Source: an uncultured Desulfobacteraceae bacterium
GTDB taxonomy: Bacteria > Desulfobacterota > Desulfobacteria > Desulfobacterales > UBA5852
Assembly (NCBI GenBank): GCA_913060875.1
Contig: CAJXSL010000003.1
Coordinates: 273,045-337,044 of the forward strand
DNA: 64,000 bases
Direction: 5' to 3'
Shown here: positions 11,861 to 47,347 of the stretch, piece by piece
Position numbering within the stretch: the first letter of the stretch is position 1
Layout of the letters: each line of letters opens with the position of its first letter
Notes under the pieces: generated by a model
The model's database searches: none
Seen by the model: the letters and a program-made list of their open reading frames with translations, nothing else
Told to the model about the DNA's origin: nothing
Made by a program: the position numbers and the translations under genes

Positions 11861-11877
11861 ACACAAGCAATGGCAGG

Positions 11878-11914
11878 CATCAGGGGTCGCGCCGCAGGGC
11901 GATGACCCCTGATG
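11878..11914 (+). promoter_or_regulatory. Intercistronic hairpin between livK and livH (operon 1)
   Basis: CATCAGGGGTC (11878-11888) pairs with GACCCCTGATG (11904-11914) around a 15-nt loop. There is no T-run after it, so it is not a simple terminator. Such hairpins after a binding-protein gene can protect the upstream mRNA or cut down read-through, so that binding protein exceeds permease. A matching hairpin is present in the second liv operon. Confidence 0.65.
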
Positions 11915-11987
11915 TGTTTATGGCAGATTATTTTTAGGGAAGACTATATAACCGCTTCAATGCGGACGGGGTTGGGAATCGTATCCG

Positions 11988-12890: not shown

Positions 12891-12967
12891 TCTCGATCAT
12901 CCCTCGCCGGCGGGAAACTGGGCAAACCATGCTGGCAGCCCGGCGGTAAAAGGTTACGCAGCGAATT

Positions 12968-15685: not shown

Positions 15686-15744
15686 TGGCCGTCCCTCTCG
15701 TTTTCAATCCTCGAGAAATCCAACGATACCGTCGGCTGCCACCA

Positions 15745-17070: not shown

Positions 17071-17109
17071 GGCATATTTATCCTGAGCGCATGCGTTGCC
17101 GCGTGCATT

Positions 17110-18138: not shown

Positions 18139-18352
18139 GACCTTATCTGTTCTTTTGTACTGGATGAAAATGAATAATTTTATGTGGTTACCAGCGCAAG
18201 ACTATTATGGTGAATAACCAACAGCCTGTCAACGCGATAGCGAGCAAACTGGCCAAACCGCGGTCGTTTTCTTTTTGACATCACCGAAGGCACCCCTTAC
18301 CATAGAAAACTTTGCGGCATTTCGGCACCCGGGTTCATTCGGAAAGGGTTGC

Positions 18353-33500: not shown

Positions 33501-34058
33501 ATGCCAAACGATTCCATTCAAATTATTGAGGCCGATTATCGCGACGAAGCGCACCGGGAGGCCATCCCTTATTTGTTGAATGCATATGCCCGGGATTTGC
33601 TGGGGTTTCGCAAACCCCTGGACGATACCGTTTTGCAGCATCTCGTCAGCGGACTGGCCCAATTTCCCACCGCCCTGGTGCTGCTGGCCCGCACCGAGGG
33701 CCGCTATGTGGGAATGGCCATCTGCTTCCTGGGATTCTCCACCTTCAGTGCCCGGCCCCTCATCAACATCCACGATTTCATGGTGCTCCCGGACTACCAG
33801 AAACGCGGCATCGGCAATGCCCTTCTCCAGGAAGTGGAACGGATTGCCCGGGAGCGGGGCTGCTGTAAAATCACGCTGGAAGTGCAGATGAAGAACACGG
33901 CGGCCCGGCGGATCTACCAGTCCTTCGGTTTCAAGGCGTCCTTTCTGGACCCGGAAGCCGGCGAGCAGCTGTCTCTGACCAAAACATTGTCACCACCGGA
34001 AGATGCCGCCTCCGGAAATGGGGATGGTCGCGGCGTCATCCAACCTTCCGAGGCATGA
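33501..34058 (+). CDS. GNAT-family N-acetyltransferase
   Basis: A 185-residue acetyl-CoA-dependent transferase. Motif A is DFMVLPDYQKRGIGNALLQEVE, with the QKRGIG pyrophosphate-binding loop; motif B is NTAARRIYQSFGF. These are canonical. The last roughly 25 residues (SPPEDAASGNGDGRG) look disordered. It is the first gene of a plus-strand GNAT-AraC-LysE group. The acceptor substrate cannot be told; a link to the exporter gene downstream (amino acid or amine) is inference. Confidence 0.9.
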   Translation: MPNDSIQIIEADYRDEAHREAIPYLLNAYARDLLGFRKPLDDTVLQHLVSGLAQFPTALVLLARTEGRYVGMAICFLGFSTFSARPLINIHDFMVLPDYQKRGIGNALLQEVERIARERGCCKITLEVQMKNTAARRIYQSFGFKASFLDPEAGEQLSLTKTLSPPEDAASGNGDGRGVIQPSEA

Positions 34059-34065
34059 GCCGGCC

Positions 34066-34872
34066 GTGAATCGGGAAAACTTTTTCATAGACGAGCGTTT
34101 GCCCTTTGCCGAAGGCCGCTTTACGCAGGACAGCCGACGGTTGTTCAAACCGCATATGCATCGGCGTTTCAGCATCGGCGCCGTCGATACCGGTGAAGTG
34201 ATTTTCCAGGTGGAGGATCAGGCGATATGCCTTCGTCCCGGTGCATTGGCCCTCATCAATCCGGAAACCCTCCACAGCTGCAACCCCTCAAGCGCAAGGG
34301 CCCGGAGCTATTTCATGCTTTACCTGAAGACGGACTGGTGCCTTCAGGTTCAACAATCCCTCTGGGAAACGGAGGTTTTTCTTCCGGTGGACACCAGCCT
34401 CGTGGAAGATGAGGGCCTTCATCGCCGGTTTTTGGACACCATGGCCGGCCTGATGGGAGATACCCACTTGATGGCCAAAGAGCAGCTTCTGGCGGACATG
34501 GCTGCCGCCCTGTTCCAGCGGTGCTGCCAGACCGGCAGGGCGGCGGCCGCATCCGCGCCGCATATCGCACACCTCAAGCACTGCCTGGCCGGCGACCTGG
34601 AGGAAGACCTGACCCTTGCTGAACTGGCCGGGTACCTGGCTGCCAACCCATACACCCTGCTGCGTCAGTTCAAACAGGCCACCGGGATCACGCCCCACGC
34701 CTACCGGATGAACTGCCGCATCGAGCGAGCCCGCACCTTGTTGCAAAAAGGTATGGAGATCAGCGAGGTGGCCCTGGCCTGCGGGTTTTTTGACCAGAGC
34801 CATTTCCACCGCCATTTCAAGACCATGACCACGGTGACACCCCGCGAATACCAGCTCAATTTTGTACAATAA
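34066..34872 (+). CDS. AraC-family transcriptional regulator
   Basis: About 268 residues. The N-terminal cupin-like effector domain shows FKPHMHRRFSIGAVDTGEV and LRPGALALINPETLHSCNP. The C-terminal double helix-turn-helix contains LAGYLAANPYTLLRQFKQATGITPHAYRMNCRIERAR (in part) and ISEVALACGFFDQSHFHRHFK, the AraC signature. I chose GTG 34066, 8 nt after the GNAT stop, because the family's effector domain begins about there. In-frame ATGs at 34003 and 34024 would overlap the GNAT gene. It sits directly upstream of a LysE-type exporter and probably controls it, as AraC-LysE neighbours commonly do. Confidence 0.88.
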   Translation: MNRENFFIDERLPFAEGRFTQDSRRLFKPHMHRRFSIGAVDTGEVIFQVEDQAICLRPGALALINPETLHSCNPSSARARSYFMLYLKTDWCLQVQQSLWETEVFLPVDTSLVEDEGLHRRFLDTMAGLMGDTHLMAKEQLLADMAAALFQRCCQTGRAAAASAPHIAHLKHCLAGDLEEDLTLAELAGYLAANPYTLLRQFKQATGITPHAYRMNCRIERARTLLQKGMEISEVALACGFFDQSHFHRHFKTMTTVTPREYQLNFVQ

Positions 34873-34919
34873 TTGTTTGCTTTCAGGGCCTATACTCCAT
34901 CCCCGTGAAAGGGGGACCC

Positions 34920-35528
34920 ATGGAGTTTATACTGATTGCGTCGGCCCATTTCCTGGCCCTGCTCAGCCCGGGCCCGGATTTTTTCCTCATCCTGCAGGCG
35001 ACCCTGCGGTTGCCCCTGCGCTATGCTTTTATGGTCTGCGCGGGCATCGCTGCGGCCAACGGGATCTACCTGGCCGTTGCCGTTCTGGGGTTGGAGACCG
35101 TGCGGGAGATGAATACGTTGATGATGGTGCTCAAATGGCTGGGCGGCGGCTATCTTACCTATGTGGGCCTTATGCTGTTGCGCGCCCCCCGGCGTTCTCT
35201 GGATACCGGGGCCCCGGTGAACGCCTTGCATGCGCCGGCATTGGGCCGGCAGTTTGTGGTGGGATTCCTGTCGGCCATTTTCAATCCCAAAAACGCCATC
35301 TTCTACCTGTCTTTGTTTACGGCCATGGTTTCGGCAGAAACCCCATTGGGGACGCGCATCCTCTATGCCCTGTGGATGGTGACAGTGGTCCTCGTCTGGG
35401 ATGCGGGGGTGGCGATAGCCTTCGGACAGGTGCGGGTGAAACGGATGCTGGGGCAATGGGTATTCCGTATCGAAAAAGTGTCCGGTTTGTTATTGGCGGT
35501 TTTTGGGATTCTCCTGGCGGTGGATTGA
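34920..35528 (+). CDS. LysE/RhtB-family amino acid exporter
   Basis: A 202-residue membrane protein with six predicted helices. HFLALLSPGPDFFLILQATL near the N-terminus is the diagnostic LysE/RhtB motif (SPGPD), and FLSAIFNPKNAIFYLSLF contains the second conserved NPK motif. The ATG at 34920 is used; the frame extends to a GTG at 34905 without improvement. It exports an amino acid (lysine, threonine or homoserine type) and follows its probable AraC regulator by 47 nt. Confidence 0.92.
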   Translation: MEFILIASAHFLALLSPGPDFFLILQATLRLPLRYAFMVCAGIAAANGIYLAVAVLGLETVREMNTLMMVLKWLGGGYLTYVGLMLLRAPRRSLDTGAPVNALHAPALGRQFVVGFLSAIFNPKNAIFYLSLFTAMVSAETPLGTRILYALWMVTVVLVWDAGVAIAFGQVRVKRMLGQWVFRIEKVSGLLLAVFGILLAVD

Positions 35529-35781
35529 ACGGCACGAGGCGAGTAGGACAACAATGACCGCGAGAATGTTCGCCCGATAACTACCGGATTAACCCTTGGA
35601 ATAATGTTATGTTGCACCCGAGGGGTTGAACCTTGACTGGATTAGGGGGTACCCATGGATAGGCGAATGACGAGAGGGTGTTCAGATTGAAAAGACCTTC
35701 GATCCGGGAACGGTTGCCTTCACCATTAAGGCCCGCCGGTGAAACCATTTCGCCAATGGCACTATAAAGCGCGCCCGTGAT
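35529..35781. other. Intergenic gap lysE / epimerase (convergent)
   Basis: A 253-nt gap between convergent genes. I saw no strong terminator hairpin, no RNA gene and no credible small gene. A short open stretch near 35690-35740 has no start. Confidence 0.3.
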
Positions 35782-36735
35782 TTAAACGGCGGCCCTTTTT
35801 ACGGTTCGTGCAAAATCGGCAAAGGCCATGCGGGTATCGTACTGGTAAGCAAAGCTTGTTTCGCTGACAAGCTTGTCTGAAGAGACGATCCAGGGATAGC
35901 GCATGATATTCAGCGCCGGGCTGGGGAACTCGGTCAGCCAGGTCATACGCAGGCGCCACGCTATATGGTTGATCGGGGCCATGACCGCCGCTGGCAGCGG
36001 GCAGTAGATATTGCCCAGCATCCGCACCATTTCAGCCATTGCCAGCGTGCCTTCCCCCGCCACGTTGTAGACCCCACCTGCCACCTGCTTTTCCAGGCAC
36101 AACAGAATGATGCGCACAAGGTCGTCTTCATGGACGAACTGCATGGGGGATGACGGACTGGGGCAGAGCACCACTTTCTTTTTCAGGTGAGTGGCCAAAG
36201 GGTTGGCAAAACCCGGCCCCACTACAAAGCAGGGCCGCAGAATCGTTATGGCCAGGGAGGGGGTATTCCCCATGACTTCCTGGAAGATGAATTCGATCTC
36301 TTTTTTGTTTTTGCTGTAGGTGAAATCGTCATTGCCCCGCAAGGGGCTGTCCTCGGTCAGGGGGATGGGGTTGTCCGGGTGAAAGCCATAGGCCGTGGCC
36401 GAACTGGTGTAGAGGAGATGGTCCACGCCGGTATCACGGCAGGCCGCAATGACATTGCGGGTGCCGCTGACGTTGATGTCCTCCATCAGGGCCCGGTCGT
36501 GGATGGGGGGCAACACATAGGCGGCATGGATGACCGTGTCGATCCCATGGCGGCGGAACAGATCCGCCATGGGCGTGCGGACATCGTGCTGATGAAAGAT
36601 CAGGCCGTTCAGCGGGGTCCGGGGCGGTTGGATGTCGATGCCCACAAGCGTCGCCACATCTGCATGCTGGGCCAGCGCCTTGGCAATTTTTCCGCCGATG
36701 TAACCGGACACACCGGTGATTAATACATTTTTCAT
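35782..36735 (-). CDS. NAD-dependent epimerase / 3beta-hydroxysteroid dehydrogenase-like extended SDR
   Basis: A 317-residue extended short-chain dehydrogenase. The NAD-binding VLITGVSGYIGGKIAKAL is at the start; DVRTPMADLFRRHGIDTVIHAAYV shows Asp for NAD preference; the catalytic YSKNK (Tyr and Lys) follows. VVGPGFANPLATHL and FVHEDDLVRIILLCLE are typical of the extended family. It is the last gene of the TetR operon, 69 nt after the SDR gene. In a beta-oxidation setting it may oxidise a hydroxyl on an alicyclic or steroid-like ring, but a sugar epimerase role cannot be excluded. Confidence 0.82.
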   Translation of the reverse strand: MKNVLITGVSGYIGGKIAKALAQHADVATLVGIDIQPPRTPLNGLIFHQHDVRTPMADLFRRHGIDTVIHAAYVLPPIHDRALMEDINVSGTRNVIAACRDTGVDHLLYTSSATAYGFHPDNPIPLTEDSPLRGNDDFTYSKNKKEIEFIFQEVMGNTPSLAITILRPCFVVGPGFANPLATHLKKKVVLCPSPSSPMQFVHEDDLVRIILLCLEKQVAGGVYNVAGEGTLAMAEMVRMLGNIYCPLPAAVMAPINHIAWRLRMTWLTEFPSPALNIMRYPWIVSSDKLVSETSFAYQYDTRMAFADFARTVKRAAV

Positions 36736-36804
36736 GGTCCCCCTATTTGCTGTGATCGAGTGGTTTTTTGCCGTCCGGGTAAACGACCCGACGGCCCGGT
36801 GGCG

Positions 36805-37590
36805 CTACGCGTTGCCATTGCCGAACGCCAGGGTTTTTACCAGGAAGCGCCGGGCAAAGGGCAGCGCCCACATGCCGAACATCAGCATCCGGATGGTGGC
36901 GCCCACCTTCCAGTGCAGTTTCCGGCCATGGGCCGCCCGCCAGACCGCATCCGCTACGGTTTTGGGCCCCACGTGGACTCCCATGCGGCGCACGCTGGTG
37001 GCCTGGACGCCGGCGTCCGTGATCATGGGCGTGGCCACATAGGGCACCATGATGTCGCAGACCCCGATGTCCAGGGGTTCGAATTCGATATCCAGGGCTT
37101 CGGTAAGCCCCCGCACCGCGAACTTGGTGGCGGAATAGACGGCCAGTTCCGGCCCGCCGTAGACCGCCGAGGCCGAGGACATGTTGATGATCCTGGCTCC
37201 GGGGGTTTTTTTAAGCAGCGGCAGCCCGGCCTGAATGCCGTGCAGCACACCGTTCAGATTAACGGCCACGGTCCGGGTCTGTTCTTCGATGGGGATGGAC
37301 CGATGGGGCCCCATGCGAAGGATACCGGCACAGTTGAACAGGACGTCCATGCGGCCGCCGGTGTGGCGGCTGAAAGTCTCCACGGCGGCCAGAAGGCTCT
37401 CCGGACAGGCCACGTCGGTCTCCAGGCAGCAGGCCTGATCGATGCCGAGTTCCCGGTGGAGAGCTGTCAGGGCTCGTTTGTTGATATCGCTTAGCCCCAC
37501 AAACCAACCCCGCCGGCTGAATAGGCGGGCGGCGGCCTCACCGATACCCGAGGCCGCTCCCGTGATAAAGATGCTCTTTTGCGTGGTCAT
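36805..37590 (-). CDS. Short-chain dehydrogenase/reductase
   Basis: A 261-residue classical SDR. TGAASGIGEAAARLF is the coenzyme loop, LFNCAGI the structural NAG region, INMSSASAVYGGPELAVYSATKFAV (in part) holds the catalytic Ser and YxxxK, and VPYVATPMITDAG follows. A tail of about 60 residues contains a hydrophobic segment (MLMFGMWALPFARRFL), suggesting membrane attachment. It is 6 nt from the thiolase gene, so it most likely acts as the 3-hydroxyacyl-CoA dehydrogenase or a ring alcohol dehydrogenase of this pathway. Confidence 0.85.
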   Translation of the reverse strand: MTTQKSIFITGAASGIGEAAARLFSRRGWFVGLSDINKRALTALHRELGIDQACCLETDVACPESLLAAVETFSRHTGGRMDVLFNCAGILRMGPHRSIPIEEQTRTVAVNLNGVLHGIQAGLPLLKKTPGARIINMSSASAVYGGPELAVYSATKFAVRGLTEALDIEFEPLDIGVCDIMVPYVATPMITDAGVQATSVRRMGVHVGPKTVADAVWRAAHGRKLHWKVGATIRMLMFGMWALPFARRFLVKTLAFGNGNA

Positions 37591-37596
37591 GGGCGT

Positions 37597-38835
37597 CTAC
37601 ACTTTTTCGAGGATATGAATGCACATGGCGGCCTCTTCCACGCCGATATTGCCGCCGCCGTTTTCAGCCAGCCCCAGCCGGGCGCCTTCGACCTGACGCG
37701 GGCCGGCCTCACCGCGCAACTGAACCCCGATTTCATAGATCTGGGCCAGGCCGGAGGCGCCGATGGGATGGCCGCGGCATTCCAGCCCGCCACTGGTGTT
37801 GACCGGCTGCTGGCCGCCCAGCTTGGTGGCCCCCGATTCAGCCCAGGGGCCGCCTTCTCCCACGGGGCAGAAGCCCATGGCCTCGGTCTGGTGCAGCTCA
37901 CCATAAGACGTGGCGTCGTGCAGTTCGGCCAGACTGATGTCCCGGGGCCCCACCCCGGCGATGTCGTACGCCTGTTTCGACAGGCGCTCGCCGATGTCGA
38001 CACCGTCCAGGTCCCGGTCGGTTCCGGAGCCCAGCACCGAAGCGCGGATTTTGATGGGCCGTGCGGCGGCAAGTTTTTTCAGGTAGGCTTCGGAACAGAC
38101 GATGGCCGCCGCGGCCCCGTCGCCCACCGGCGCGCACATGGAGCGGGTCAGGGGGTAGGCAATGGGTTTGTCGGCCAGCACCTCGTCCACGGTCATGTCC
38201 TGCTGATACTGGGCCATGGGATTGAGGGAGCCGTGCCAGTGGTTCTTGGCGCAAATGGCGGCCAGTTGGCGCTGGGTGCTGCCGAAGCGGTCCATATGCC
38301 ACTTGGCCCCCATGGCGTAGGCATCCATAAAGATGCTGCGCCCGTCGCCGGGAGGGGCCTGGTCCGGAGGGATTTCCACGCTGAAGGTCTTGTTGAGTTC
38401 CATCATCATGTTGATGTGGCTCTCGAAATTGTCCACATCCATGCAGGTGGCGTAGGCCGTCAGGGACTTCACTTTATCCGGGTCGGTAATCTTTTCGGAA
38501 CCCACTGCCAGGGCCAGGTCGACCATGCCCGCCCGGACACTTGTGTAGGCCAGATGCAGGGCTGTGGACGCCCCGGCACAGGCATTCTCCACGTTGGTCA
38601 CCGGGATGCCGTCGATCCCCATGGATCGGAGGGCCACCTGCCCGCGTATGGAATGCTGGTTGGCGAACATGCCCCAGAAGGTGTTGGAAAAATAAGCCGC
38701 CTGCAACGCCGTCTTGTCGAGACCGGCATCCTTCAACGCCAGGTTCGTCACCTCATGGGCCATGTCCCGGACGGTACGGTCCGGGTATTTGTTGAATCGG
38801 ATCATGCCGAGTCCGATAATGAAGACATCTGTCAT
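37597..38835 (-). CDS. SCP-x-like thiolase (acyl-CoA C-acetyltransferase)
   Basis: A 412-residue thiolase that cleaves 3-ketoacyl-CoA. The acyl-accepting Cys is in NVENACAGASTALH, the active-site His in ECRGHPIGASGLAQ, and HDATSYGELHQTEAMGF is the SCP-x/lipid-transfer type marker. The ending LAENGGGNIGVEEAAMC lacks the second Cys of classical CxGGGQG thiolases. SCP-x thiolases shorten branched or steroid side chains in other organisms, and this operon also encodes an SCP2 carrier. The ATG at 38835 has GAAAGGA upstream; the frame extends to 38859 without a site. Confidence 0.9.
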   Translation of the reverse strand: MTDVFIIGLGMIRFNKYPDRTVRDMAHEVTNLALKDAGLDKTALQAAYFSNTFWGMFANQHSIRGQVALRSMGIDGIPVTNVENACAGASTALHLAYTSVRAGMVDLALAVGSEKITDPDKVKSLTAYATCMDVDNFESHINMMMELNKTFSVEIPPDQAPPGDGRSIFMDAYAMGAKWHMDRFGSTQRQLAAICAKNHWHGSLNPMAQYQQDMTVDEVLADKPIAYPLTRSMCAPVGDGAAAAIVCSEAYLKKLAAARPIKIRASVLGSGTDRDLDGVDIGERLSKQAYDIAGVGPRDISLAELHDATSYGELHQTEAMGFCPVGEGGPWAESGATKLGGQQPVNTSGGLECRGHPIGASGLAQIYEIGVQLRGEAGPRQVEGARLGLAENGGGNIGVEEAAMCIHILEKV

Positions 38836-38863
38836 GGATTCGTTTTCCTTTCTGTCCACGTGT

Positions 38864-40087
38864 TCAAAGATGATGGGCCCCGGTGATCATCAGGCTGTCA
38901 TTGGCCCCGTCCTCGATCATGCCGGCCCGGGCGTCCCGGAAGAACTTCTCCACCGGATATTCCCGCGCCAGGCCGTTGCCGCCGAAGATCTGGATGGCCT
39001 CGCTGGCCACCTCATAGGCGGTCTGGGTGCAGAAGACTTTGGAGGCGATGGAATATTCTACGTTGGGCGGGGTGTTGTTGTAATTGTAGATCATGGCCGC
39101 CCGGGAGAGCGCTCGGGCGGCTTCGATCTTGGTGAACATGTTGAACAGTTTGTGCTTGATCATCTGGTGCTCGAAGAGGGGTTGGCCGCCCTGGACCCGC
39201 TGTTTGGCATATTGGAGGGCCTCTTCATAGGCGGCCCGGGCCACACCGGTAAACATGGCCCCCATGGCCGCGTTGGCCGTGGACAGGGTGATGTCGAGCA
39301 TGGCGCCGTAGCTTTCCTGATCCACCAGCATGTATTCCCTGGGCACGCGCACCTTGTCGAAGAAGATCTCCCCCTGGTTCAGGGCCCGCTGGCCCATCTT
39401 GTCCAGAGGTCGGCCTCTGCGCACGCCGGGCAGATCCAGCGGCACGATGCAGATGCCGCCCCCGGCCATCCCCATGGATGGATCGATGGTGAGGTAGGCC
39501 AGGGCGTGGGTGGCGATGGTGCCGTTGGAGACCCAGGCCGATTTCTGCCCTTCGATGATGTAGGCGTCGCCGTCCAGCCGGGCGGTGAGCTGGCCCGAGA
39601 TTTCCGGATCTTCGAACTGGGGGGTAAAAGGGCAGAGGGTGTCGGTGCCGTGTTCCGGCTCGGTAATGGCCCAGCAGCCGATGATGGAGGCGTCTTCGTT
39701 TTCGCAGAAAGGGGTGATGATCTCATCGGCCAGTTTGTCGTTGGGCACCATGGTGGCGAAAAAGGCGGGAAAACAGGACACGCCGATGCCGACGGCAAAG
39801 TCCACGCTGCCCCAGGCCAACTCTTCCAGGACGATGTGGGTTTCCAGGGGGTCGGTTCCAAGTCCGCCCCAGGTATCCGGTACGAAGATGGTATGGTAGC
39901 CGAGCTCGTAGCCCTTTTTGAAGGCGTTTCGAAATGTATCGCTGTTCATCACGTCGGCCGGGTCGTGGAGTTTGTCCAGTTCCAGGCTGGCCGGCCGCAG
40001 GACCTCTTTGGCAAACCGGTGGGTTTCATCCTTGATGGCGATCTGCTCGTCGGTCAGATCGATATTGAGATCGGTATAAAGTGCCAT
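38864..40087 (-). CDS. Acyl-CoA dehydrogenase
   Basis: A 407-residue FAD enzyme that introduces a trans-2 double bond in acyl-CoA. CWAITEPEHGTD is the first family signature, IEGQKSAWVSNGTIATHALAY the flavin-contact region (in part), QIFGGNGLAREYPVEKFFRDARAGMIEDGAND the C-terminal signature with the catalytic Glu (in part). Electrons would go to an electron-transfer flavoprotein, not encoded in this window. Between the ligase (15 nt) and thiolase (28 nt) genes, so part of the same pathway. Confidence 0.92.
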   Translation of the reverse strand: MALYTDLNIDLTDEQIAIKDETHRFAKEVLRPASLELDKLHDPADVMNSDTFRNAFKKGYELGYHTIFVPDTWGGLGTDPLETHIVLEELAWGSVDFAVGIGVSCFPAFFATMVPNDKLADEIITPFCENEDASIIGCWAITEPEHGTDTLCPFTPQFEDPEISGQLTARLDGDAYIIEGQKSAWVSNGTIATHALAYLTIDPSMGMAGGGICIVPLDLPGVRRGRPLDKMGQRALNQGEIFFDKVRVPREYMLVDQESYGAMLDITLSTANAAMGAMFTGVARAAYEEALQYAKQRVQGGQPLFEHQMIKHKLFNMFTKIEAARALSRAAMIYNYNNTPPNVEYSIASKVFCTQTAYEVASEAIQIFGGNGLAREYPVEKFFRDARAGMIEDGANDSLMITGAHHL

Positions 40088-40102
40088 GCCGTTTCTCCTT
40101 AA

Positions 40103-41713
40103 TTAGTAGTCGTCGCTTCGATAGACATTTTTGGCTTCAGGGGCGAACTGCTCCCGGAGCACCCGATCCAGGGCCTTTTCGGAAATGGTCTTGGGGATGG
40201 CCTCCACCACCTGCAGGTAGGAGGGTACGAAGTTGGGCTCCAGATCCCGGCGGCATTTTGCAACCATGGTCTTCGGGTCGATGGCCTGGCCGTCAAAGGG
40301 GGCCAGGGCCGCCACCAGGTCACTCTCGCCGGGGGCCCCGGAGGCCGCTGGAATGCCGTAGACGCAGACTTCGCTTACTTCAGGGCAGGCGCCGATTACC
40401 CGCTCGATGTGATCGGGCTGGATAAAATCCCCGGACCGGCGCAATTCGCTGCCTTTGCGGTGGTCGAAATAATACCAGCCGGCATCGTCCCGGTGCACGA
40501 TGTCGCCGGTGCGCAGCCATCCGCCGCGGGTTTTCTCCTCCGAAGCCTCGGGTTTGCCAAGATAGTCCACCTTGGTTTCCCCCTTGGTCATCCGCACGAT
40601 CAGTTCGCCGCGATCGCCATGGGGCACTTCGGTGTCGGCGTCGTCCACCACCTTGAATTCCATCATGCCCGGGAGGGGCTTGCCGAATGAGCCGACCGGA
40701 CCTTTGCCCGGCGGCTTGTAGGCAAAACCACCTTCGACCGCACCGTACCATTCCAGGATTTTAAGGTTGAAACGCTCCTCGAAGGCTTCCCAGATGGCGG
40801 CCGGGGTTCCGGCGCTGATGACGGTTTTGACCGGGTTGTCCCGGTCGTTGTCCCGGGGCGGTTCGTTGAAGATGCCGCTCATCATACCCCCCAGGAGCGA
40901 AAAGGAGGTGCAGCCGTATTGGCGGCAGATATCCCAGATGCGGCTCTTGGTGAACCGGGCACTGAACACGGCCTTGGTCCCGGTGCCGATGGCCGGAAAG
41001 AGCGTCACGGCCTGGGCGTTGCCGTGGGTCAGGGACAAACCGGAATAAAGCACGTCGCTGGGTTTGTACTTCCACACCAGCCGGGTCACGATGTTGAAGA
41101 TCCCGAAGCGATTGTTGCGGATCATGACGCCCTTGGGATCCCCGGTGGTGCCGGAGGTGTAAATGATCTGCATGGGGTGGCGCACCTCCATGATGCGTTG
41201 GTCCACGCGCTCCCAGCGGTCCTTTTCGAGGGTTTCGTTCAGGGTCGGGTAGTCCGGCGACACGGCGATTTCTTGCTCGGGACGGTAGGCCACAAATACG
41301 TGGCGAACATTGGGCACCTGGTCGGCAATTTCCTGCAGAAAGGGCAGGTTTTCTCCGGAGACGATGATCGCCTTGGCCTTGGAGTTTTCCAGCAGGAAGC
41401 GCAGCCGGTCCCCGCGGCTGCGGGGATCGATGGGTACCATGATGGCGCCCACTACCGGGCCGGCCAGCATGCTGTAGACAAATTCGGGATGGTTGCGCAT
41501 GAAAACGGCATAGGTATCGCCCTTGCCGATGTCGTTTTGCAGAAAAAGCCGGGCCATTTTGTTGGCGTTTTCATACAGCGCCCGATAGGTGAGGATGTCC
41601 TCCCCGGCGGCCCCGTTTTCGAACACCAGGACTTCCTTGTCCGGCTTGGCGTCGGCCTTCATTTCCAGGAAATGGGAGACGATGGCCTGATTGAGATGGG
41701 CTTTGGAGCTCAT
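40103..41713 (-). CDS. AMP-forming acyl-CoA ligase (CaiC-like)
   Basis: A 536-residue ANL-superfamily ligase. The ATP loop is IIYTSGTTGDPKGVMI, WYGAVEGGFAYKPPG lies at the acyl site, GWLRTGDIVHRDDAGWYYFDHR holds the hinge Asp (in part), and PKTISEKALDRVLRE carries the catalytic Lys. The SEK replaces the common SGK. Substrate residues do not let me name the acid; the resemblance is to carnitine/crotonobetaine and medium- to long-chain or alicyclic acid ligases. The ATG at 41713 has AAAGGGAG. It starts the pathway by activating a carboxylic acid. The gap of 108 nt upstream is the widest in the operon. Confidence 0.9.
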   Translation of the reverse strand: MSSKAHLNQAIVSHFLEMKADAKPDKEVLVFENGAAGEDILTYRALYENANKMARLFLQNDIGKGDTYAVFMRNHPEFVYSMLAGPVVGAIMVPIDPRSRGDRLRFLLENSKAKAIIVSGENLPFLQEIADQVPNVRHVFVAYRPEQEIAVSPDYPTLNETLEKDRWERVDQRIMEVRHPMQIIYTSGTTGDPKGVMIRNNRFGIFNIVTRLVWKYKPSDVLYSGLSLTHGNAQAVTLFPAIGTGTKAVFSARFTKSRIWDICRQYGCTSFSLLGGMMSGIFNEPPRDNDRDNPVKTVISAGTPAAIWEAFEERFNLKILEWYGAVEGGFAYKPPGKGPVGSFGKPLPGMMEFKVVDDADTEVPHGDRGELIVRMTKGETKVDYLGKPEASEEKTRGGWLRTGDIVHRDDAGWYYFDHRKGSELRRSGDFIQPDHIERVIGACPEVSEVCVYGIPAASGAPGESDLVAALAPFDGQAIDPKTMVAKCRRDLEPNFVPSYLQVVEAIPKTISEKALDRVLREQFAPEAKNVYRSDDY

Positions 41714-41821
41714 GGTAACTCCCTTTACTAAGCAATGGTGAAGGTTTTCGAAACGATACCGTCCGCTTGGGCAGGTCGTGACCGTTGGCGACAGACGCCC
41801 GGGCAACGACCGGCAGCGGGG

Positions 41822-42472
41822 TCATTCTTCGACGGCACCGATAAAGCCCCGGTTGAACGGCGGGAACTCCTTGTCGAAAATCTCGTCCCAGTGATCTTTG
41901 GTCCAGAACTCGTGCCGGTCGAAATAGGGGTTCTTTTTGGCGACACTCACGGATACGCACACGCACAGGTCCACATCCTCGATCATCTCCAAGGCCAGAG
42001 CGCTGAATCCCAGGGTGGAGAAGATCCGGCAGTGCAGCCCCAGGCGGTGGGCCATGCTGGCGGCCGCATTGGCGGCCATGTTCATGTTGATGTTTTTGAA
42101 CATGCAGCTGGGACCGTTGGCCGTGAGGGACTCCACTTCTTCGGCGGCGTTCATTTCGGCGCAGGTGCGGTAGCCGCAGGCCCCGCAATTGTAGTTGAAG
42201 TCGGATTTGCGTTTGTCGCCGATGAGCAGCAGCGAGCAGGGCTCTTTCATCAATTGGACCAGGTGGCGGCCGTCCCGGGCGGCCAGGGGCGACATGTCGC
42301 CCAGGGAAAAACAATACTCGGCGATCTGCTCCAGATCCTCGCCGTCGATGGCCCGCATCCGGATCGTGTTGCGATCGTTGAAGCGGAAACTGTTGTGGGC
42401 GGCCACGGCCATGAGTTCCACCGAACGGGCCAGCCCGTTGCTGATGAGATCCGGCATTTCGATAATGGGCAT
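41822..42472 (-). CDS. Ferredoxin-domain DUF2148 protein A
   Basis: A 216-residue protein of the DUF2148 (COG4739) family. The N-terminal half is a helical/alpha-beta domain. The Cys motif FNYNCGACGYRTCAEMN (C-x2-C-x4-C) and a distal Cys in GPSCMFKN form a probable [4Fe-4S] site. A cysteine-rich strand VDLCVCVSVSVAKKNPYFDR follows, then a Trp-rich C-terminus. Twelve nt separate it from a paralogue with the same motif, so the pair probably forms a heterodimer. Function unknown. In this operon an electron-transfer or metal-centred step beside the flavin dehydrogenase is conceivable. Confidence 0.8.
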   Translation of the reverse strand: MPIIEMPDLISNGLARSVELMAVAAHNSFRFNDRNTIRMRAIDGEDLEQIAEYCFSLGDMSPLAARDGRHLVQLMKEPCSLLLIGDKRKSDFNYNCGACGYRTCAEMNAAEEVESLTANGPSCMFKNINMNMAANAAASMAHRLGLHCRIFSTLGFSALALEMIEDVDLCVCVSVSVAKKNPYFDRHEFWTKDHWDEIFDKEFPPFNRGFIGAVEE

Positions 42473-42484
42473 GGTTGACCTCCT

Positions 42485-43156
42485 CTAGCTGTAGATGGAA
42501 CGGAACTGCGGCCAGAGCCGGTTGATCATCCGGTCGTTCATGGTCCGCTGGTTGATGTCGGCATAGCGCTTGGGGACATCCCGGAAGGGGCTCTTCTCGG
42601 TGATGGAGATGGCCACGGCCAGGGCGAAGCCGGTGTCACGGGGCAGGATGCCCATGCGCATGGCAGCGGCGCCGGCCGACCAGTAGACCCCGTAGTCGAT
42701 GCCCAGGTTGCGGGCCTGGGAAACCATGCCGTCGATGGCATAGGCGATGTTGTTGGCCCTGAAGATGCAAAGGCATCCGGTGAAGGCCACATCCGGATCG
42801 GGTGGCAGCTTGTCCTCCTCCTTGAGGTATTCACAGACCAGCTTGCCGCACATGTTGCAGTTGATGTCGGCCGGATCGGTCAGGCTGCGCAGGGAGGTGG
42901 AAATCAGAACCGCGTCGGCATCCCGAAGCATGGCGGCATCGCGTTTGAAAAACTGCCAGCTTTTCTTGATATCCGCCATGCGTTCCACCTCCTGGCACAG
43001 GTCCTCGATGTCGCAGTCATCGTCCAGGACGTGGATGGTGCACTCCCCGACCCCGCCCACCCGCGGCGAAGTGGTACCCGAGGCCAGGATCAGCCGGGCC
43101 GCCAGGCGGACGGCTTCTTTGCGGTCGGTCTCGTATTGTTTCATGCTGCGTTCCAT
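42485..43156 (-). CDS. Ferredoxin-domain DUF2148 protein B
   Basis: A 223-residue paralogue of the downstream gene. It has INCNMCGKLVCEYL (C-x2-C-x4-C) and a distal TGCLCIFRANNIAYAIDGM, again a likely [4Fe-4S] cluster. The C-terminal part (GILPRDTGFALAVAISITEKSPFRDV) aligns in layout with the strand of protein A ending in KNPYFDR. The N-terminus (ILASGTTSPRVGGVGECTIHV) differs from protein A, which suggests divided roles. It starts 17 nt after the SCP2 gene. No reaction is established for the family as far as I know. Confidence 0.8.
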   Translation of the reverse strand: MERSMKQYETDRKEAVRLAARLILASGTTSPRVGGVGECTIHVLDDDCDIEDLCQEVERMADIKKSWQFFKRDAAMLRDADAVLISTSLRSLTDPADINCNMCGKLVCEYLKEEDKLPPDPDVAFTGCLCIFRANNIAYAIDGMVSQARNLGIDYGVYWSAGAAAMRMGILPRDTGFALAVAISITEKSPFRDVPKRYADINQRTMNDRMINRLWPQFRSIYS

Positions 43157-43173
43157 GGTGTCCTCCTCTCGGG

Positions 43174-43581
43174 TCAGGCGATGGGAAGGCCGTGGGATTG
43201 GGCCCAGTCCGGATAGGCGGCATAGGCGGGTTTGAGCAGGGGCAGCAGTTTGAGCACTTTGGGCATGGGGCCCTTGGCTTTGATGAGCCCCTTGGCCAGG
43301 GCGATGGGCATGGAAATCTGCTGGAGCCAGAACTTGTGGCAGGTGTCGCCGCTCAATGTCATCTCCACGGTGGGCTTGATGTCCTGTTTGCCCCAGAGGA
43401 CCTCGCCGCCGGAGCCGTGGTCCGGCGTCACCCAGAGTTCGGCGTTGGGCTCGGTGATGTTGAACTTGATGATGATGTCGGCTTTGACGAACTTGGGACC
43501 GAAATCGGGATCGCCCAAAAGCTTTTCGAACAATCCCCCCAAAATTTCCTGCATCTTCTCCGTGGTTTCAAAAACCGGCAT
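43174..43581 (-). CDS. SCP2 sterol/lipid carrier domain protein
   Basis: A 135-residue single SCP2 domain. Helix 1 (EKMQEILGGLFEKLL), the beta sheet (IIIKFNITEPNAELWVT, KPTVEMTLSGDTCHKFWLQQ in part) and the helical end around a lipid tunnel match the family. SCP2 proteins carry acyl-CoA, sterols or other lipids. It follows tetR by 19 nt and precedes the DUF2148 pair, so the pathway substrate is probably a poorly soluble lipid or acyl-CoA. Confidence 0.88.
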   Translation of the reverse strand: MPVFETTEKMQEILGGLFEKLLGDPDFGPKFVKADIIIKFNITEPNAELWVTPDHGSGGEVLWGKQDIKPTVEMTLSGDTCHKFWLQQISMPIALAKGLIKAKGPMPKVLKLLPLLKPAYAAYPDWAQSHGLPIA

Positions 43582-43600
43582 GGGTGCCTCCTCTTTAGGT

Positions 43601-44212
43601 TCAGGGTTGCGTGAGATAGGGCCGCATCAGTCCTTCGATGGCCTGCCGGAAGGACGTCAGGGCCCAGTCGGTGGTGTGGGATTCCGGGTCCAGGTACCAG
43701 CGGGTGGCCGTGCCCTGGTAAATGGCGGATATCGTCCGGGCCGTGGCCTCGGGATTCAGTTGCTTAAAGTGCCCCTTTGCCAATCCTTTCCGCAGGGCAC
43801 CTTCAAGCAGGACGACCCAGTTGTCGATCCAATCATGGAAGATCCGGCGGTAGTCCTCGTCATGGGCGGCCAGGGACATGACGTCGAAAAGCAGGGGGTA
43901 GCCGATGTTGAGATCGGGATCGTCCAGGTTATAGAGCCAGTCGAAGGAGAGCAGCTGCCCCATGGGGTCGTCGACCGCCTGCATGGTTTCCTGGCTGCGG
44001 TGGAAGATGCGGTCAAAAAAGGCCTTGAAAGCTGCTTTGAAGAGGTCGTTTTTGGATTTGAAGTAATGGGCCAGGCCGCCCTTGGAGAGCCCGGCCGCTT
44101 TGCAGATGTCATCCATGGTGACATTGGCATGGCCGTTGGCGGCAATGGTTTGCAGGGCGGCATCGAGAATCTGTGTCTTGCGGATGGCTTCCAACTCCGG
44201 GATGGCAGGCAT
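43601..44212 (-). CDS. TetR-family regulator of the acyl-CoA operon
   Basis: A 203-residue repressor. The N-terminal helix-turn-helix (VTMDDICKAAGLSKGGLAHYFKSKNDLFKAAF, in part) is standard. The ligand domain contains a hydrophobic core (FDWLYNLDDPDLNIGYPLLFDV). It is the first gene after a strong promoter with two palindromes at 44352-44387, so it most likely represses its own operon and is released by an acyl-CoA or related pathway compound. The ligand is an inference. Confidence 0.92.
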   Translation of the reverse strand: MPAIPELEAIRKTQILDAALQTIAANGHANVTMDDICKAAGLSKGGLAHYFKSKNDLFKAAFKAFFDRIFHRSQETMQAVDDPMGQLLSFDWLYNLDDPDLNIGYPLLFDVMSLAAHDEDYRRIFHDWIDNWVVLLEGALRKGLAKGHFKQLNPEATARTISAIYQGTATRWYLDPESHTTDWALTSFRQAIEGLMRPYLTQP

Positions 44213-44351
44213 GGTTGGTCCGTCCTTTCGCCACGAGGTGTTTTCGTGCGGCGGTGCGGTTGCGTCGGGTGTGACCTTCCTGTCGTTACCACCGGTGACC
44301 GGCGACTGCCTTGAGGACCATAAGCCCTAAGGGGTGGCAAGGTGGAAACCG

Positions 44352-44387
44352 ACCGGACGTCCGGTAAACCGACTGTCTGGTCGGTTT
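44352..44387 (-). promoter_or_regulatory. Double palindromic operator upstream of tetR operon
   Basis: Site 1 is AAACCGAC (44366-44373) with GTCGGTTT (44380-44387) around 6 nt. Site 2 is the perfect palindrome ACCGGACGTCCGGT (44352-44365). They abut, lie just downstream of the -10, and are the right size for two TetR dimers. Confidence 0.7.
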
Positions 44388-44389
44388 TT

Positions 44390-44418
44390 CATATAGCGCC
44401 CATTCTTTGGAACGTCAA
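44390..44418 (-). promoter_or_regulatory. Promoter of the TetR-SCP2-DUF2148-beta-oxidation operon
   Basis: On the minus strand TTGACG (44418-44413), a 17-nt spacer, and TATATG (44395-44390). The operators begin immediately after the -10, so a bound repressor blocks initiation. Confidence 0.75.
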
Positions 44419-44656
44419 GAAAAATATTGGCATCATATTTTATTTGAATACAATTTAGTTTACGGGTGCAATTCGGGTGGAATGGGGAGGAGCTTCTCCT
44501 GCCCTGCCCGGCGGTGTTTGTCAACGTTGCCGGAGGTCTGGATTTTCCCTCGAACATGTGTTGCAACTGGTGGCCGACAGGCCGCTGCCGGTATGGGCGC
44601 CAGCTGAGCAGGGCCACCGGCAATGACGGGAAGTTACAAGGGTTGTTTGGAAAACC
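44419..44656. other. Gap upstream of the TetR operon promoter
   Basis: About 240 nt between the promoter and the next minus-strand gene. The first part is AT-rich, which fits an upstream activating region; the rest shows no RNA gene, terminator or convincing small gene. Short overlapping frames here lack ribosome-binding sites. Confidence 0.3.
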
Positions 44657-45238
44657 CTATCCTGGATCGGTCGCCTTGGCCGGCATCCGGTAGACGTAGA
44701 TGGGATCGTTGGTGAGGCTGTTGCCGGGGCGCAGAATGTGTGCCGGGGCGAGCCCCGGCAGAGGGAAATTGCAGGAGACGACCATCGCGCCCGGCTTGAG
44801 CTCGCGCTGTATTTTGCGGGCCAGACGGTTCATCACGTCCGGGAACAGGTAGCAAAAGACGACATCGGCGCTGGACAGGTCGACGTTCCAGAAGTTTTTC
44901 AGGCGAACCCTGACGCGTGAACGCCCCAGGCATAGCAGGCGGGCCTTGAGGAAGGCCAGGGGGTTGAGTTCGTAGCCCTCGGCCCGCACCGGACAGCGGC
45001 GGCAGGCAGCGCGCAGCACCCGGCCGTCGCCGCAGCCGAGATCCACCAGGCGCTGTCCCGGCTGAAGATCCACCGCGTCCAGGAAAGCCTTAACCCGCCG
45101 CCGGGCCGTGGATACATAAAGGGCGCCGCGGGTTGCCGGCAGCACCAGGGCAATGCTGAATCCGTAAATCGCTTTGGCGGCAAACAGGGCGCCGGTGATA
45201 CCGATGAAAAGCCAGATGCCGAAGGGGATGCTGCTCAT
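44657..45238 (-). CDS. Membrane-anchored class I SAM methyltransferase (FAM173-like)
   Basis: A 193-residue protein with one N-terminal membrane helix (about residues 8-34) and a Rossmann methyltransferase domain: RLVDLGCGDGRVLRAACRR is motif I. The layout of one anchor helix followed by a DLGxGDGR domain resembles the FAM173/ATPSCKMT group, which methylates the c subunit of ATP synthase in mitochondria. The bacterial target here is unknown. It starts 1 nt after the stop of rlmI and is co-transcribed with it. Confidence 0.78.
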   Translation of the reverse strand: MSSIPFGIWLFIGITGALFAAKAIYGFSIALVLPATRGALYVSTARRRVKAFLDAVDLQPGQRLVDLGCGDGRVLRAACRRCPVRAEGYELNPLAFLKARLLCLGRSRVRVRLKNFWNVDLSSADVVFCYLFPDVMNRLARKIQRELKPGAMVVSCNFPLPGLAPAHILRPGNSLTNDPIYVYRMPAKATDPG

Positions 45239-45239
45239 T

Positions 45240-46427
45240 TTACCAGACGCGGCAAAGCAGGCCTTTGAGATAATGACCTTCCGGAAAATTGAGGGATGTC
45301 GGGTGGTCCGCGGCCTGGCTCATACGCTGGATGATCTGGGTGTCCCGTCCGGCATCCAGGGCGGCATCCGAAACGATTTTCTGGAAGAGGCTGGGCTCCA
45401 TGAGGCCCGAGCAGGAAAAGGTGAATACATATCCACCGGAACGGAGCAGCTTGATGGCCAGCAGGTTGATGTCCTTGTAGCCGCGGCTGGCCCGCTCCAA
45501 CTGCTGCCGGGAATCGGCAAATTTAGGGGGATCGAGGACGATGACATCGAACTGGCGGGCGGCGTCACGAAAAGAGCGCAGCTGCTTGAAGACATCGGCC
45601 TGGAGATAGGTCACCCGTTCGGAGTCCAGGTCGTTGAGGGCCATGTTCTCGCGGGCCAGGTCCAGGGCGCCGGCCGAAATATCGACATTGGTGACGGTTC
45701 GGGCGCCGGCGGCCATGGCCGCCACACCGAATCCGCCGGTGTAACAAAAGCAGTTCAGCACATCGCGGTCGGAGGCATAGTGGCCCACTTGCCGGCGATT
45801 GTCCCGCTGATCCAGATAAAAGCCGGTCTTGTGCCCATTGCGGACATCCACCAGATAGCGGAAGTCGCCCTCCTGGATGGCGATCCTGTCCGGCGGCGCC
45901 TTGCCGGCCAGGGGCCCGACGCTGTGCGTCAGCCCCTCCTTGCCGAGCACCGGGCTGTCGGAACGTTCGAAGATACCGTCCGCGATAATCAGATCCTGCA
46001 ATTCTTCGACGATGACCGGCTTCCAGGCGTGCACCCCGACCGTCAGGAACTGACAAACCAGAAAGCGGTCGTACTGGTCGATGATCAAACCCGGCAGGCC
46101 GTCTGATTCGGCATTGACCAATCGTAACGCATTGAGGCGGCCCCCTTTTTTCAAATCGTGGCGGTTGGCGATGGCCCGTTTGAGCCGATGGCGGAAAAAA
46201 GCCCGGTCCACAGGTTCATTCGGGTCGAAGGTCCATATCCGGACCGCAATCTGCGACGTGGGAGAGTAGGCACCCCGCCCCAGCCAGCTTCCCCGGGTGT
46301 CGACCACATCGACAGTGTCTCCGGCTGCGGCATGGCCTTTCTTTTTGGCCAGGGCGCCGCTGAATATCCAGGGATGTTTGCGCTTCAGAGATTTGTCGCG
46401 TTTGGGTTTGATGATCACAAAAGCCAT
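45240..46427 (-). CDS. rlmI: Class I rRNA methyltransferase RlmI-like (23S rRNA m5C)
   Basis: A 395-residue cytosolic enzyme that makes 5-methylcytosine in 23S rRNA (m5C1962 in E. coli). The N-terminal PUA domain begins KPKRDKSLKRKHPWIFSGAL; the EEHE-type linker has GFYLDQRDNRR; the Rossmann domain has LNCFCYTGGFGVAAMAAGA (motif I), VIVLDPPKFADSR (motif IV) and TFSCSGLM with the catalytic Cys. Length is normal. It is read with the small membrane methyltransferase. A long-palindrome repeat lies 57 nt from its start on the upstream side. Confidence 0.93.
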   Translation of the reverse strand: MAFVIIKPKRDKSLKRKHPWIFSGALAKKKGHAAAGDTVDVVDTRGSWLGRGAYSPTSQIAVRIWTFDPNEPVDRAFFRHRLKRAIANRHDLKKGGRLNALRLVNAESDGLPGLIIDQYDRFLVCQFLTVGVHAWKPVIVEELQDLIIADGIFERSDSPVLGKEGLTHSVGPLAGKAPPDRIAIQEGDFRYLVDVRNGHKTGFYLDQRDNRRQVGHYASDRDVLNCFCYTGGFGVAAMAAGARTVTNVDISAGALDLARENMALNDLDSERVTYLQADVFKQLRSFRDAARQFDVIVLDPPKFADSRQQLERASRGYKDINLLAIKLLRSGGYVFTFSCSGLMEPSLFQKIVSDAALDAGRDTQIIQRMSQAADHPTSLNFPEGHYLKGLLCRVW

Positions 46428-46483
46428 TAGGGCATCACCATCCTGTGATAAAGGTTGTTGATCAATCGGAGGCCGTTTTTACC

Positions 46484-46629
46484 TATTGCCCATCCATAAA
46501 AGGCATCTTTCGGCCCCTGGCGGCGTTTTCGCTCGTTTTCAATCCTCGAAATAGCGGGCTATTCCTCCGGTTGAAAACGCGCTCAGGCCTTGCCAGGAAC
46601 CAAAATCTACCATTTATGGACGGACACTA
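46484..46629. repeat. Long-palindrome dispersed repeat, copy A (MITE/REPIN-like)
   Basis: A 146-bp near-perfect palindrome: left and right arms of about 72 nt pair over almost their whole length around AATAGC-GG-GCTATT (centre near 46556). Its ends are TATTGCCCATCCATAAA and the complement TAGTGTCCGTCCATAAA. A second, longer copy is at 61258-61470 with the same termini and inner blocks. No transposase is present, so it would be non-autonomous. It lies between rlmI and a methyltransferase gene. Confidence 0.75.
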
Positions 46630-46729
46630 CCTATAAAACATCACCACGCTTGTCCATCCCGGAAATTTGGGGATGCCGATATGGTTCCGGGGAATGGACA
46701 AGTTTCACAATATCGTGTCGCACCTGTTG

Positions 46730-47347
46730 TTAGCGGCCTGACACCCTGTAAGCCAGTACGCGTGCCTGCAGGGTGGAGTCCGCATCGGGCCAGGACCGGT
46801 ATGGGGGCGACCATGCTAGTTTTTGCCATTGGGCTTCCTTCTCCAGTCGACGGATCAGGGAAAGAAAGGCCTTTTCGAATGTGCCGTCCCACTTGAGGCT
46901 GAAAATGATCCAACCGCCGGGTTTAACGATGCGGCCCAGTTCGACCATGGTCTCGGGGGGCGCGTGCCCCGGCGTAAACACGCCGGCGGCCAGTACGGCA
47001 TCGAAGCAATGGTCCGGCATTCCCAGGGGGCGGCCCAGCATCATCCGGCACAAGCATTGGTAGACACCCTTGCCGGACGCCTGAACCAGCATGCCATGGG
47101 AACAGTCCAGCCCGGTCAGACATCGGAATCCCCGAAGATACAGTTCCTCTCCCAGCAGCCCCGTGCCGGCGCCGACATCGAGCAGATGAAGATTCCCATG
47201 GGGTAAAAATCGGCGGGCGGCTGCGGCAATCGCATGGGGCGTGGCGCAGCCCATCCGGCGGACATCCCGGTCGTAATCCGCCGACCAGGCATCATAGCCC
47301 CGGACCAGGGTCTCGTGGTCCGTATTGTTGAAGAGGAGGTGCTGCAT
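46730..47347 (-). CDS. Class I SAM-dependent methyltransferase (METTL27/WBSCR27-like)
   Basis: A 205-residue Rossmann methyltransferase. Motif I is LHLLDVGAGTGLLGEELY, and GLDCSHGMLVQA, FDAVLAAGVFTPGHAPPETMVELGRIVKPGGWIIFSL (in part) follow. The N-terminal RGYDAWSADYDRDVRRMG and the GxHxP-like GHAPPE stretch resemble the METTL27/WBSCR27 group. Small-molecule or protein acceptor unknown. It stands alone between the repeat and a long gap. Confidence 0.85.
   Translation of the reverse strand: MQHLLFNNTDHETLVRGYDAWSADYDRDVRRMGCATPHAIAAAARRFLPHGNLHLLDVGAGTGLLGEELYLRGFRCLTGLDCSHGMLVQASGKGVYQCLCRMMLGRPLGMPDHCFDAVLAAGVFTPGHAPPETMVELGRIVKPGGWIIFSLKWDGTFEKAFLSLIRRLEKEAQWQKLAWSPPYRSWPDADSTLQARVLAYRVSGR

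Follow-up and report, generated by a model that had tools for sequence, protein, structure and literature searches.

The window analysed here (a stretch of 64,000 nucleotides from the genome of an uncultured Desulfobacteraceae bacterium) carries nine minus-strand open reading frames (ORFs) at 35782-44212, with short gaps between them. Two of the nine encode proteins of the DUF2148 family, which we call DUF2148-A and DUF2148-B. With some reserve, we favour the reading that this operon is an inducible and horizontally spread module by which a hydrophobic, probably branched or cyclic acid is activated anaerobically and cleaved in the manner of beta-oxidation, DUF2148-A/B being the redox enzyme. 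The reading is built on gene content, conservation, predicted fold, cysteine motifs, module replacement and palindrome conservation, all of which were computed. Pfam still describes DUF2148 (PF09918) as uncharacterized, and no paper naming DUF2148 or COG4739 was found in the open-access literature searched. The pair is now tied to a fixed set of CoA enzymes, a predicted fold and a natural stand-in, which gives it a testable role. A first-pass annotation of the same DNA had proposed the nine-gene run, which the ORF positions and short gaps bear out, and had named it as its best candidate for an undescribed system. This holds insofar as the core is conserved, widespread and without description in the literature searched; the sterol reasoning behind the claim fares less well. 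The features are as follows.

44368..44385, no strand: palindromic putative operator ACCGAC-N6-GTCGGT, upstream of tetR
43601..44212, minus strand: TetR-family regulator, first gene (PF00440, 56.8 bits)
43174..43581, minus strand: SCP2-domain protein, probable hydrophobic acyl carrier (PF02036, weak match of 25.6 bits, cut-off 21.3)
42485..43156, minus strand: DUF2148-B, putative Fe-S protein (PF09918)
42767..42859, minus strand: DUF2148-B cysteine motif C95, C98, C103, C125 (numbering from codon 43141), probable [4Fe-4S] site
41822..42472, minus strand: DUF2148-A, putative Fe-S protein (PF09918 over cut-off; PF04060 20.8, below the cut-off of 23)
42104..42187, minus strand: DUF2148-A cysteine motif C96, C99, C104, C123, probable [4Fe-4S] site
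40103..41713, minus strand: AMP-forming acyl-CoA ligase (PF00501, 212 bits)
38864..40087, minus strand: acyl-CoA dehydrogenase with I-E-D-G active-site motif (Pfam N-terminal, middle and C-terminal domains)
37597..38835, minus strand: SCP-x-type thiolase without fused SCP2 domain (best PDB match SCP2-thiolase type 1, E 7.5e-62)
36805..37590, minus strand: short-chain dehydrogenase (SDR), accessory (NF006123, 304 bits, cut-off 261)
35782..36735, minus strand: extended SDR of epimerase/3beta-HSD type, accessory (PF01370, 100.6 bits; PF01073, 55.4 bits)

Gene content and conservation of the operon

The family names given in the first-pass annotation agree largely with Pfam. The SCP2 match is weak, and 3beta-HSD (3beta-hydroxysteroid dehydrogenase) is a loose label, because the last gene scores 55 bits on the 3Beta_HSD profile versus 101 on Epimerase; no NCBIfam model matched this protein above its cut-off. 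The start of DUF2148-B lies at 43156 or 43144, and the searches were run with a start at 43141, which leaves out the first codon of the latter.

An alignment of DUF2148-A, scanned against 84,980 species genomes, detected 116 relatives, of which the best 80 loci were kept. In 59 of them DUF2148-A is 61-91% identical to the window protein, and in the other 21 it is at most 33% identical, which leaves a clean gap between the close and the distant forms. SCP2, DUF2148-B and DUF2148-A are consecutive in that order in all 59 close loci, and downstream of them the ligase was found in 57, the acyl-CoA dehydrogenase in 53 and the thiolase in 48. Gaps in this core fall at contig ends, the thiolase of locus L056 being the sole exception, and a few close loci (e.g. 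L078 and L084) have extra genes between core members. Joint conservation, the check proposed earlier for the whole gene set, was therefore found for the six genes from SCP2 to thiolase, and the three others vary. A tetR like that of the window precedes SCP2 in 32 of the 51 close loci that extend at least 1.5 kb upstream. Where 3.5 kb is available, as in 30 close loci, the thiolase is followed by an SDR in 24 (in 14 with an identity of 45% or higher), and the 3beta-HSD-like gene, of epimerase type, is present in 14. Raw counts above 80 bits, with contig ends ignored, are 37, 26 and 22 out of 59 for tetR, SDR and the epimerase-like gene, respectively.

The proposed check had been conservation across Desulfobacterales. 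The core is indeed conserved, yet under the names of several phyla and not just of that order: close-locus records are named as Thermodesulfobacteriota, Spirochaetota, Bacillota, Acidobacteriota, Chloroflexota and others (the Myxococcota label, borne by records named just "Deltaproteobacteria bacterium", is not regarded as a phylum here). In a quick tree of DUF2148-A plus DUF2148-B, from which L055 and L109 were left out, 13 changes are required to account for the phylum labels of 55 rows, against a minimum of 6; most records are metagenome bins, and mis-binning is possible. The operon is also carried by the complete genome of Desulfosarcina widdelii PP31 (L070). Within the window's order, 65 of 291 genomes match DUF2148-A (E ≤ 0.001), 21 of them with the close form, own genome included, and neither the four further genomes of the genus nor the one of the family in the sample gave a match. 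We read this distribution as movement of the gene set between lineages.

Apart from the nine kinds of gene, and with antisense ORFs disregarded, every family recurs in at most 4 of 62 loci. In a sample of loci, 30 additional genes were assigned a type; many of them are unrelated and differ between loci (ribonucleotide reductase, FapA, Na/Pi transport, alanine dehydrogenase), for which reason they were not used to deduce a substrate. In the closest relative, L053, a protein combining flavodoxin and 4Fe-4S ferredoxin parts is inserted between thiolase and SDR (15388-16631), together with a 130 aa protein without Pfam match. A zinc-type dehydrogenase is among the extra genes of L078, and L090 has a second acyl-CoA dehydrogenase upstream.

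Predicted fold of the DUF2148 pair and its stand-ins

The two window proteins score 73.8 and 68.0 bits on PF09918, for a cut-off of 25. Their AlphaFold2 models, which carry no cofactor, reached a predicted local distance difference test score (pLDDT) of 87.4 for DUF2148-A and 85.4 for DUF2148-B, with a predicted template modelling score (pTM) of 0.82 in both cases, and have their main helices and strands in the same order. The best structural match had a Z of 11.2 for DUF2148-A (root mean square deviation 2.7, 130 residues) and of 12.4 for DUF2148-B (2.6, 132 residues). With a second aligner, 50 of 50 rows among the matches listed were of nitroreductase fold, for A and B alike, and Foldseek returned nitroreductase-fold entries among the first 50 rows for DUF2148-A; IYD and FbiB rows were counted in, as we take them to have this fold. 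In the models, four invariant cysteines are located in the loop preceding the long central helix. Each is kept in 60 of 60 DUF2148-B and 59 of 59 DUF2148-A sequences, window included and, for DUF2148-A, without L060, which has an internal stop. At E ≤ 1, the Fe-S profile PF04060 was hit by 20 of 72 DUF2148 proteins, the best E being 2.6e-6, and the conserved cysteines suggest one [4Fe-4S] cluster in each protein. Both are thus predicted to be of nitroreductase fold with an inserted [4Fe-4S] loop; within this well-known enzyme fold they seem to represent a new branch, and they probably act in redox chemistry. The stop in L060 is a single TGA in the DUF2148-A frame (4015-4662), at a conserved arginine position and not at a cysteine; it may be a broken gene or a sequence error, which are indistinguishable here.

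Support from sequence for the nitroreductase link is weak and points the same way as the fold: in a profile comparison, the broad DUF2148 set and the nitroreductase domains of the sister operons described below aligned over 34 columns (P 1.8e-4, probability 48%), on the A-R-x-A-P segment. The pair thus resembles the nitroreductase family (PF00881) and ferredoxin-nitroreductase fusions in predicted fold, in an A-x-x-A-P segment and in its comparable place in sister operons. It differs from them in having no PF00881 match at E ≤ 0.001 (for DUF2148-B, none at E ≤ 1), no R-R-S-x-R motif, a cysteine loop that lies inside the fold, in place of an N-terminal ferredoxin, and two paralogs versus one protein. 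The DUF2148 proteins that archaea and other bacteria encode away from this operon share its domain and cysteine motif. Here, however, a divergent pair of paralogs sits within an acyl-CoA operon, whereas SCP2, acyl-CoA dehydrogenase and thiolase are all absent from the DNA examined at the 21 distant loci.

The stand-ins were found by way of the thiolase. A search of the 291 genomes of the order, in which at most 6 candidates per genome were scored and partial matches or those below 74% were dropped, gave 45 copies of at least 74% identity over at least 399 residues; 5 are cut by contig ends, leaving 40 readable neighbourhoods. One redox module is present at 39 of the 40: the close DUF2148 pair at 17, a distant DUF2148 pair at 12 (24-32% identical, about 260-290 aa where read) and, at 10, a ferredoxin-nitroreductase fusion within the operon, with no DUF2148 match. 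Both kinds of module were never found in one operon among these 40. The ligase comes before the distant pair in all 11 such operons in which a ligase was seen; L162, of the fusion type, begins at the fusion, its upstream part being outside the view. Some genomes occur both among the 59 close loci and among the 291 genomes of the order, and the two counts are therefore not independent. Because 39 of 40 thiolases have one of these modules, a redox protein of nitroreductase fold seems to be a required part, the form of which is exchangeable.

Second-tier operons, with thiolases of 55-62% identity, were left out of these counts. DUF2148 pairs or nitroreductase matches lie near the second thiolase copy in each of L133, L144, L164 and L170, as well as in L165, L166, L168, L169 and L171; L163 and L167 have neither nearby. 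L133 (G207:C109) carries two different operons of the family side by side at 2395-18693, each with a distant DUF2148 pair, and a nitroreductase match at the locus edge, beyond its epimerase-like gene. L146 (G181), from the window's genus, has the ferredoxin-nitroreductase version in place of the DUF2148 version. In the window's own genome, two adjacent weak nitroreductase matches were seen in 595 aa open frames (G000:C1:501189-502445).

Gene trees were made quickly, with five near-duplicate loci dropped and the Shimodaira-Hasegawa-like approximate likelihood ratio test (SH-aLRT) as only support. In the ligase tree, a branch with an SH-aLRT of 99 separates the close-pair operons from the others. 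Mapping the three module types onto the trees takes 3 changes for the ligase, 4 for the dehydrogenase and 6 for the thiolase, the last figure to be compared with a mean of 20.2 for shuffled labels. We infer from this that ligase and redox module may have been exchanged together, the thiolase being shared more freely, which would place the redox module at a substrate-specific stage.

Several results weigh against a nitroreductase-type redox enzyme that is exchanged in this way. PF00881 matched 3 of the 72 DUF2148 proteins at E ≤ 1 and its best value, 0.016, is at noise level: an unrelated family matched 14 of the 72, with a best E of 0.048, so that PF00881 does hardly better. On a smaller set, hhalign gave a probability of 13.6% (P 0.002). 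A first, narrower DUF2148 profile found no nitroreductase among PDB sequences, and in a second search of these a nitroreductase ranked first with a non-significant E of 0.13. The R-R-S-x-R motif, which we take to be the FMN (flavin mononucleotide)-phosphate motif, is invariant in 17 nitroreductase domains and absent from the N-termini of DUF2148-A and -B; for this reason flavin binding is not assured, and we keep DUF2148 out of PF00881. As to the exchange, L147, the exception among the 40, has a short dehydrogenase match and no module, and L084, outside the 40-copy sample, has a close pair and a ferredoxin-nitroreductase fusion together. All three trees cluster by type far beyond shuffled labels and starred branches force fewer changes, which makes the contrast between ligase and thiolase a modest one. 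L056 has a close DUF2148 pair and no thiolase, in a gap that is not at a contig end, and no transporter or hydratase points to a substrate. In L084, the ferredoxin-nitroreductase belongs to an insertion before the thiolase (13693-17496) that also holds an additional ligase and two proteins lacking any Pfam match.

Enzymes, proposed pathway and competing explanations

The active sites of the CoA enzymes were examined in tblastn matches. For the ligase (matches of at least 45% identity), the P-loop residues T186 to G191 and the C-terminal K513 are each kept in 79 of 79. The acyl-CoA dehydrogenase shares its N-terminal, middle and C-terminal Pfam domains with glutaryl-CoA and cyclohexanecarboxyl-CoA dehydrogenase, but has Glu-Asp for the Tyr-Glu of the catalytic loop: alignments show I-E-D-G versus I-Y-E-G in three PDB relatives, and E392, D393 and G394 are found in 84 of 84 matches. 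The canonical catalytic Glu is hence an Asp in all of them, and the carboxylate is kept. By eye, a relocated Glu as in isovaleryl-CoA dehydrogenase was judged absent in the PDB alignments. According to one source, Tyr is what normally precedes the catalytic Glu, and this position is altered for alpha-substituted substrates (PMC11659651; a further paper on acyl-CoA dehydrogenases is PMC5798300). The Glu-Asp loop would fit a non-linear substrate.

For the thiolase, the catalytic residues C86 (90 of 90 matches), H306 (87 of 87) and H356 (86 of 87) align with those of PDB relatives. Type-1 SCP2-thiolase and BbsB, its best PDB matches, have Cys and His at the same positions; the window enzyme reads HDA-T, versus HDC-F in SCP2-thiolase and HDA-F in BbsB, and has no DUF35-type partner among the nine operon genes. 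Eukaryotic SCP-x has a fused C-terminal SCP2 domain. None is found in the window thiolase, whose 412 aa hold thiolase-type domains only, SCP2 being a separate gene. The set had been said to contain no enoyl-CoA hydratase (ECH), and indeed none of the nine proteins matches an ECH profile at E ≤ 0.001. Elsewhere in the genome, on other contigs than that of the window, there are 15 ECH-family matches. In tblastn with one of these proteins, L144 and L165 were the only 2 among 120 loci with a score above 50 bits, and both are outside the close-pair group; MaoC-type hydratases were searched in the nine proteins only.

From these results we infer the catalytic steps, the clusters, the heterodimer, the cofactors, the catabolic direction, the action of TetR and the substrate class. 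The ligase would turn a carboxylic acid into its CoA ester, and SCP2 would hold the hydrophobic intermediates. The acyl-CoA dehydrogenase with its altered catalytic loop would introduce a double bond, a hydratase encoded elsewhere would add water, the SDR and/or the epimerase-like enzyme would oxidize the alcohol, and the SCP-x-type thiolase would cleave the chain. DUF2148-A and -B could form a heterodimer on the nitroreductase fold, with one [4Fe-4S] cluster per subunit, as the module's own redox enzyme, most likely one that exchanges electrons, in either direction, with a CoA-ester intermediate in a substrate-specific step; the ferredoxin-nitroreductase fusion would do the same job in sister operons. 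TetR would repress by binding the 44368-44385 palindrome, and be released by a CoA ester of the pathway. SCP2, the SCP-x-type thiolase and the changed active site of the dehydrogenase make a non-linear or bulky substrate plausible.

An ordinary fatty-acid beta-oxidation operon, the Fe-S proteins of which merely carry electrons from the acyl-CoA dehydrogenase, is an unlikely alternative. In its favour, the enzymes belong to beta-oxidation families, and no recurring electron-transfer flavoprotein is visible among the 62 loci (no search by name was made), so that a dedicated acceptor would make sense. It accounts poorly for the patchy distribution within the genus and family sample and for the I-E-D-G loop, invariant here and I-Y-E-G in the PDB relatives; besides, the 15 ECH-family matches away from the window's contig indicate that general beta-oxidation is encoded elsewhere. 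The same patchiness, together with the single local palindrome, suits an inducible catabolic set better than a biosynthetic one, in which the thiolase would condense CoA esters, the SDR reduce and the dehydrogenase act as an enoyl reductase fed by DUF2148-A/B, yielding an unusual lipid. We hold this improbable, also because of the lack of any other family in more than 4 of the 62 loci, antisense ORFs aside. The thiolase, SDR and acyl-CoA dehydrogenase steps are nevertheless reversible in principle, the epimerase-like protein weakly matches OleD (48 bits, cut-off 580), and L056 has a ketoacyl-synthase-III-type gene just upstream, beside a gene of equal length and no assigned type.

Degradation of sterols, bile acids or other steroid side chains, close to the sterol-like substrate first proposed, appears more improbable still. 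It can draw on SCP2, on the SCP-x-type thiolase and on the match of the last protein to the 3Beta_HSD profile, and the models for steroid-CoA ligase CasI (162 bits, cut-off 900) and sterol demethylase SdmB (58 bits, cut-off 600) gave matches, but no steroid-pathway model exceeded its cut-off for the nine proteins among the matches listed (at most 25 each). Its argument leaned on the 3beta-HSD-like gene and is weakened by the presence of this gene in just 14 of 30 close loci and by its better fit to the Epimerase profile; what is left is family resemblance. The mycobacterial cholesterol side-chain (igr) operon contains an acyl-CoA dehydrogenase, a lipid-transfer-type thiolase fold, a MaoC-type hydratase and a DUF35 partner. 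The present operon is like it in the first two, whereas the last two are absent from the nine proteins and paired Fe-S proteins are added. A paper on Desulfosarcina widdelii (PMC12583861) deals with limonene, a different pathway, and mentions neither sterol nor nitroreductase. Finally, DUF2148-A/B might be an Fe-S (de)hydratase replacing the missing enoyl-CoA hydratase. The rarity of ECH matches at the 120 loci, with the limits given above, would agree with this idea, and yet the predicted fold and the swap for a ferredoxin-nitroreductase fusion indicate redox chemistry, so that we consider it the least probable of the four.

We come back to the preferred reading, an inducible module for the cleavage of a hydrophobic acid with DUF2148-A/B as redox enzyme. 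If it is true, the operon marks anaerobes able to attack a class of acids beyond ordinary beta-oxidation, and a new type of redox enzyme is added to anaerobic carbon metabolism. A bolder version can be put forward tentatively, as possible and short of probable: paired DUF2148 proteins would be unrecognised heterodimeric, [4Fe-4S]-inserted oxidoreductases of nitroreductase fold acting directly on CoA-ester intermediates, in undescribed, interchangeable anaerobic pathways for bulky carboxylic acids (operons of the close-pair, distant-pair and ferredoxin-nitroreductase fusion types) that are swapped between phyla together with the ligase choosing the substrate.

Transcription signals and neighbouring genes

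The putative operator at 44368-44385 reads ACCGACTGTCTGGTCGGT. With up to one mismatch, 0.08 chance sites of this pattern are expected in the window. The site is the sole exact match in the own genome (5.88 Mb), an observation separate from the locus counts below. Allowing one mismatch, the genome has 20 matches per strand, exact site included, compared to 23 for a control pattern; one-mismatch sites being at background, no wider regulon is claimed, and a TetR acting locally would be the simplest reading. Of 36 related loci that have tetR, 21 carry a similar palindrome upstream of this gene and the other 15 have neither form: the form with a 6-nucleotide spacer (up to two mismatches) in 19 of 36 versus 11 of 720 control segments, the form with a 2-nucleotide spacer (up to one mismatch) in 12 of 36 versus 0 of 720, the controls being downstream, mostly coding DNA from the same loci. 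As the pattern was first noticed in these loci, the counts are a description and lend the preferred reading no independent test.

The first-pass annotation had seen an apparent single promoter for the whole operon, which the upstream palindrome may support only indirectly. On the minus strand, no terminator-like site was detected between the genes and one lies inside the acyl-CoA dehydrogenase gene; over 34500-46000 on both strands there are 16 such sites for 11.3 expected. Promoter-like sites in this interval are at chance level (4 for 3.6 expected).

Neighbouring genes were typed by Pfam. On the plus strand, an AraC-type regulator followed by a LysE-type exporter (34003-35528) converges on the end of the operon, with no demonstrated link to it. 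Upstream of the operon, 44657-47347 on the minus strand holds three methyltransferase-type genes, the middle one with PUA-like and S-adenosylmethionine (SAM)-methyltransferase domains.

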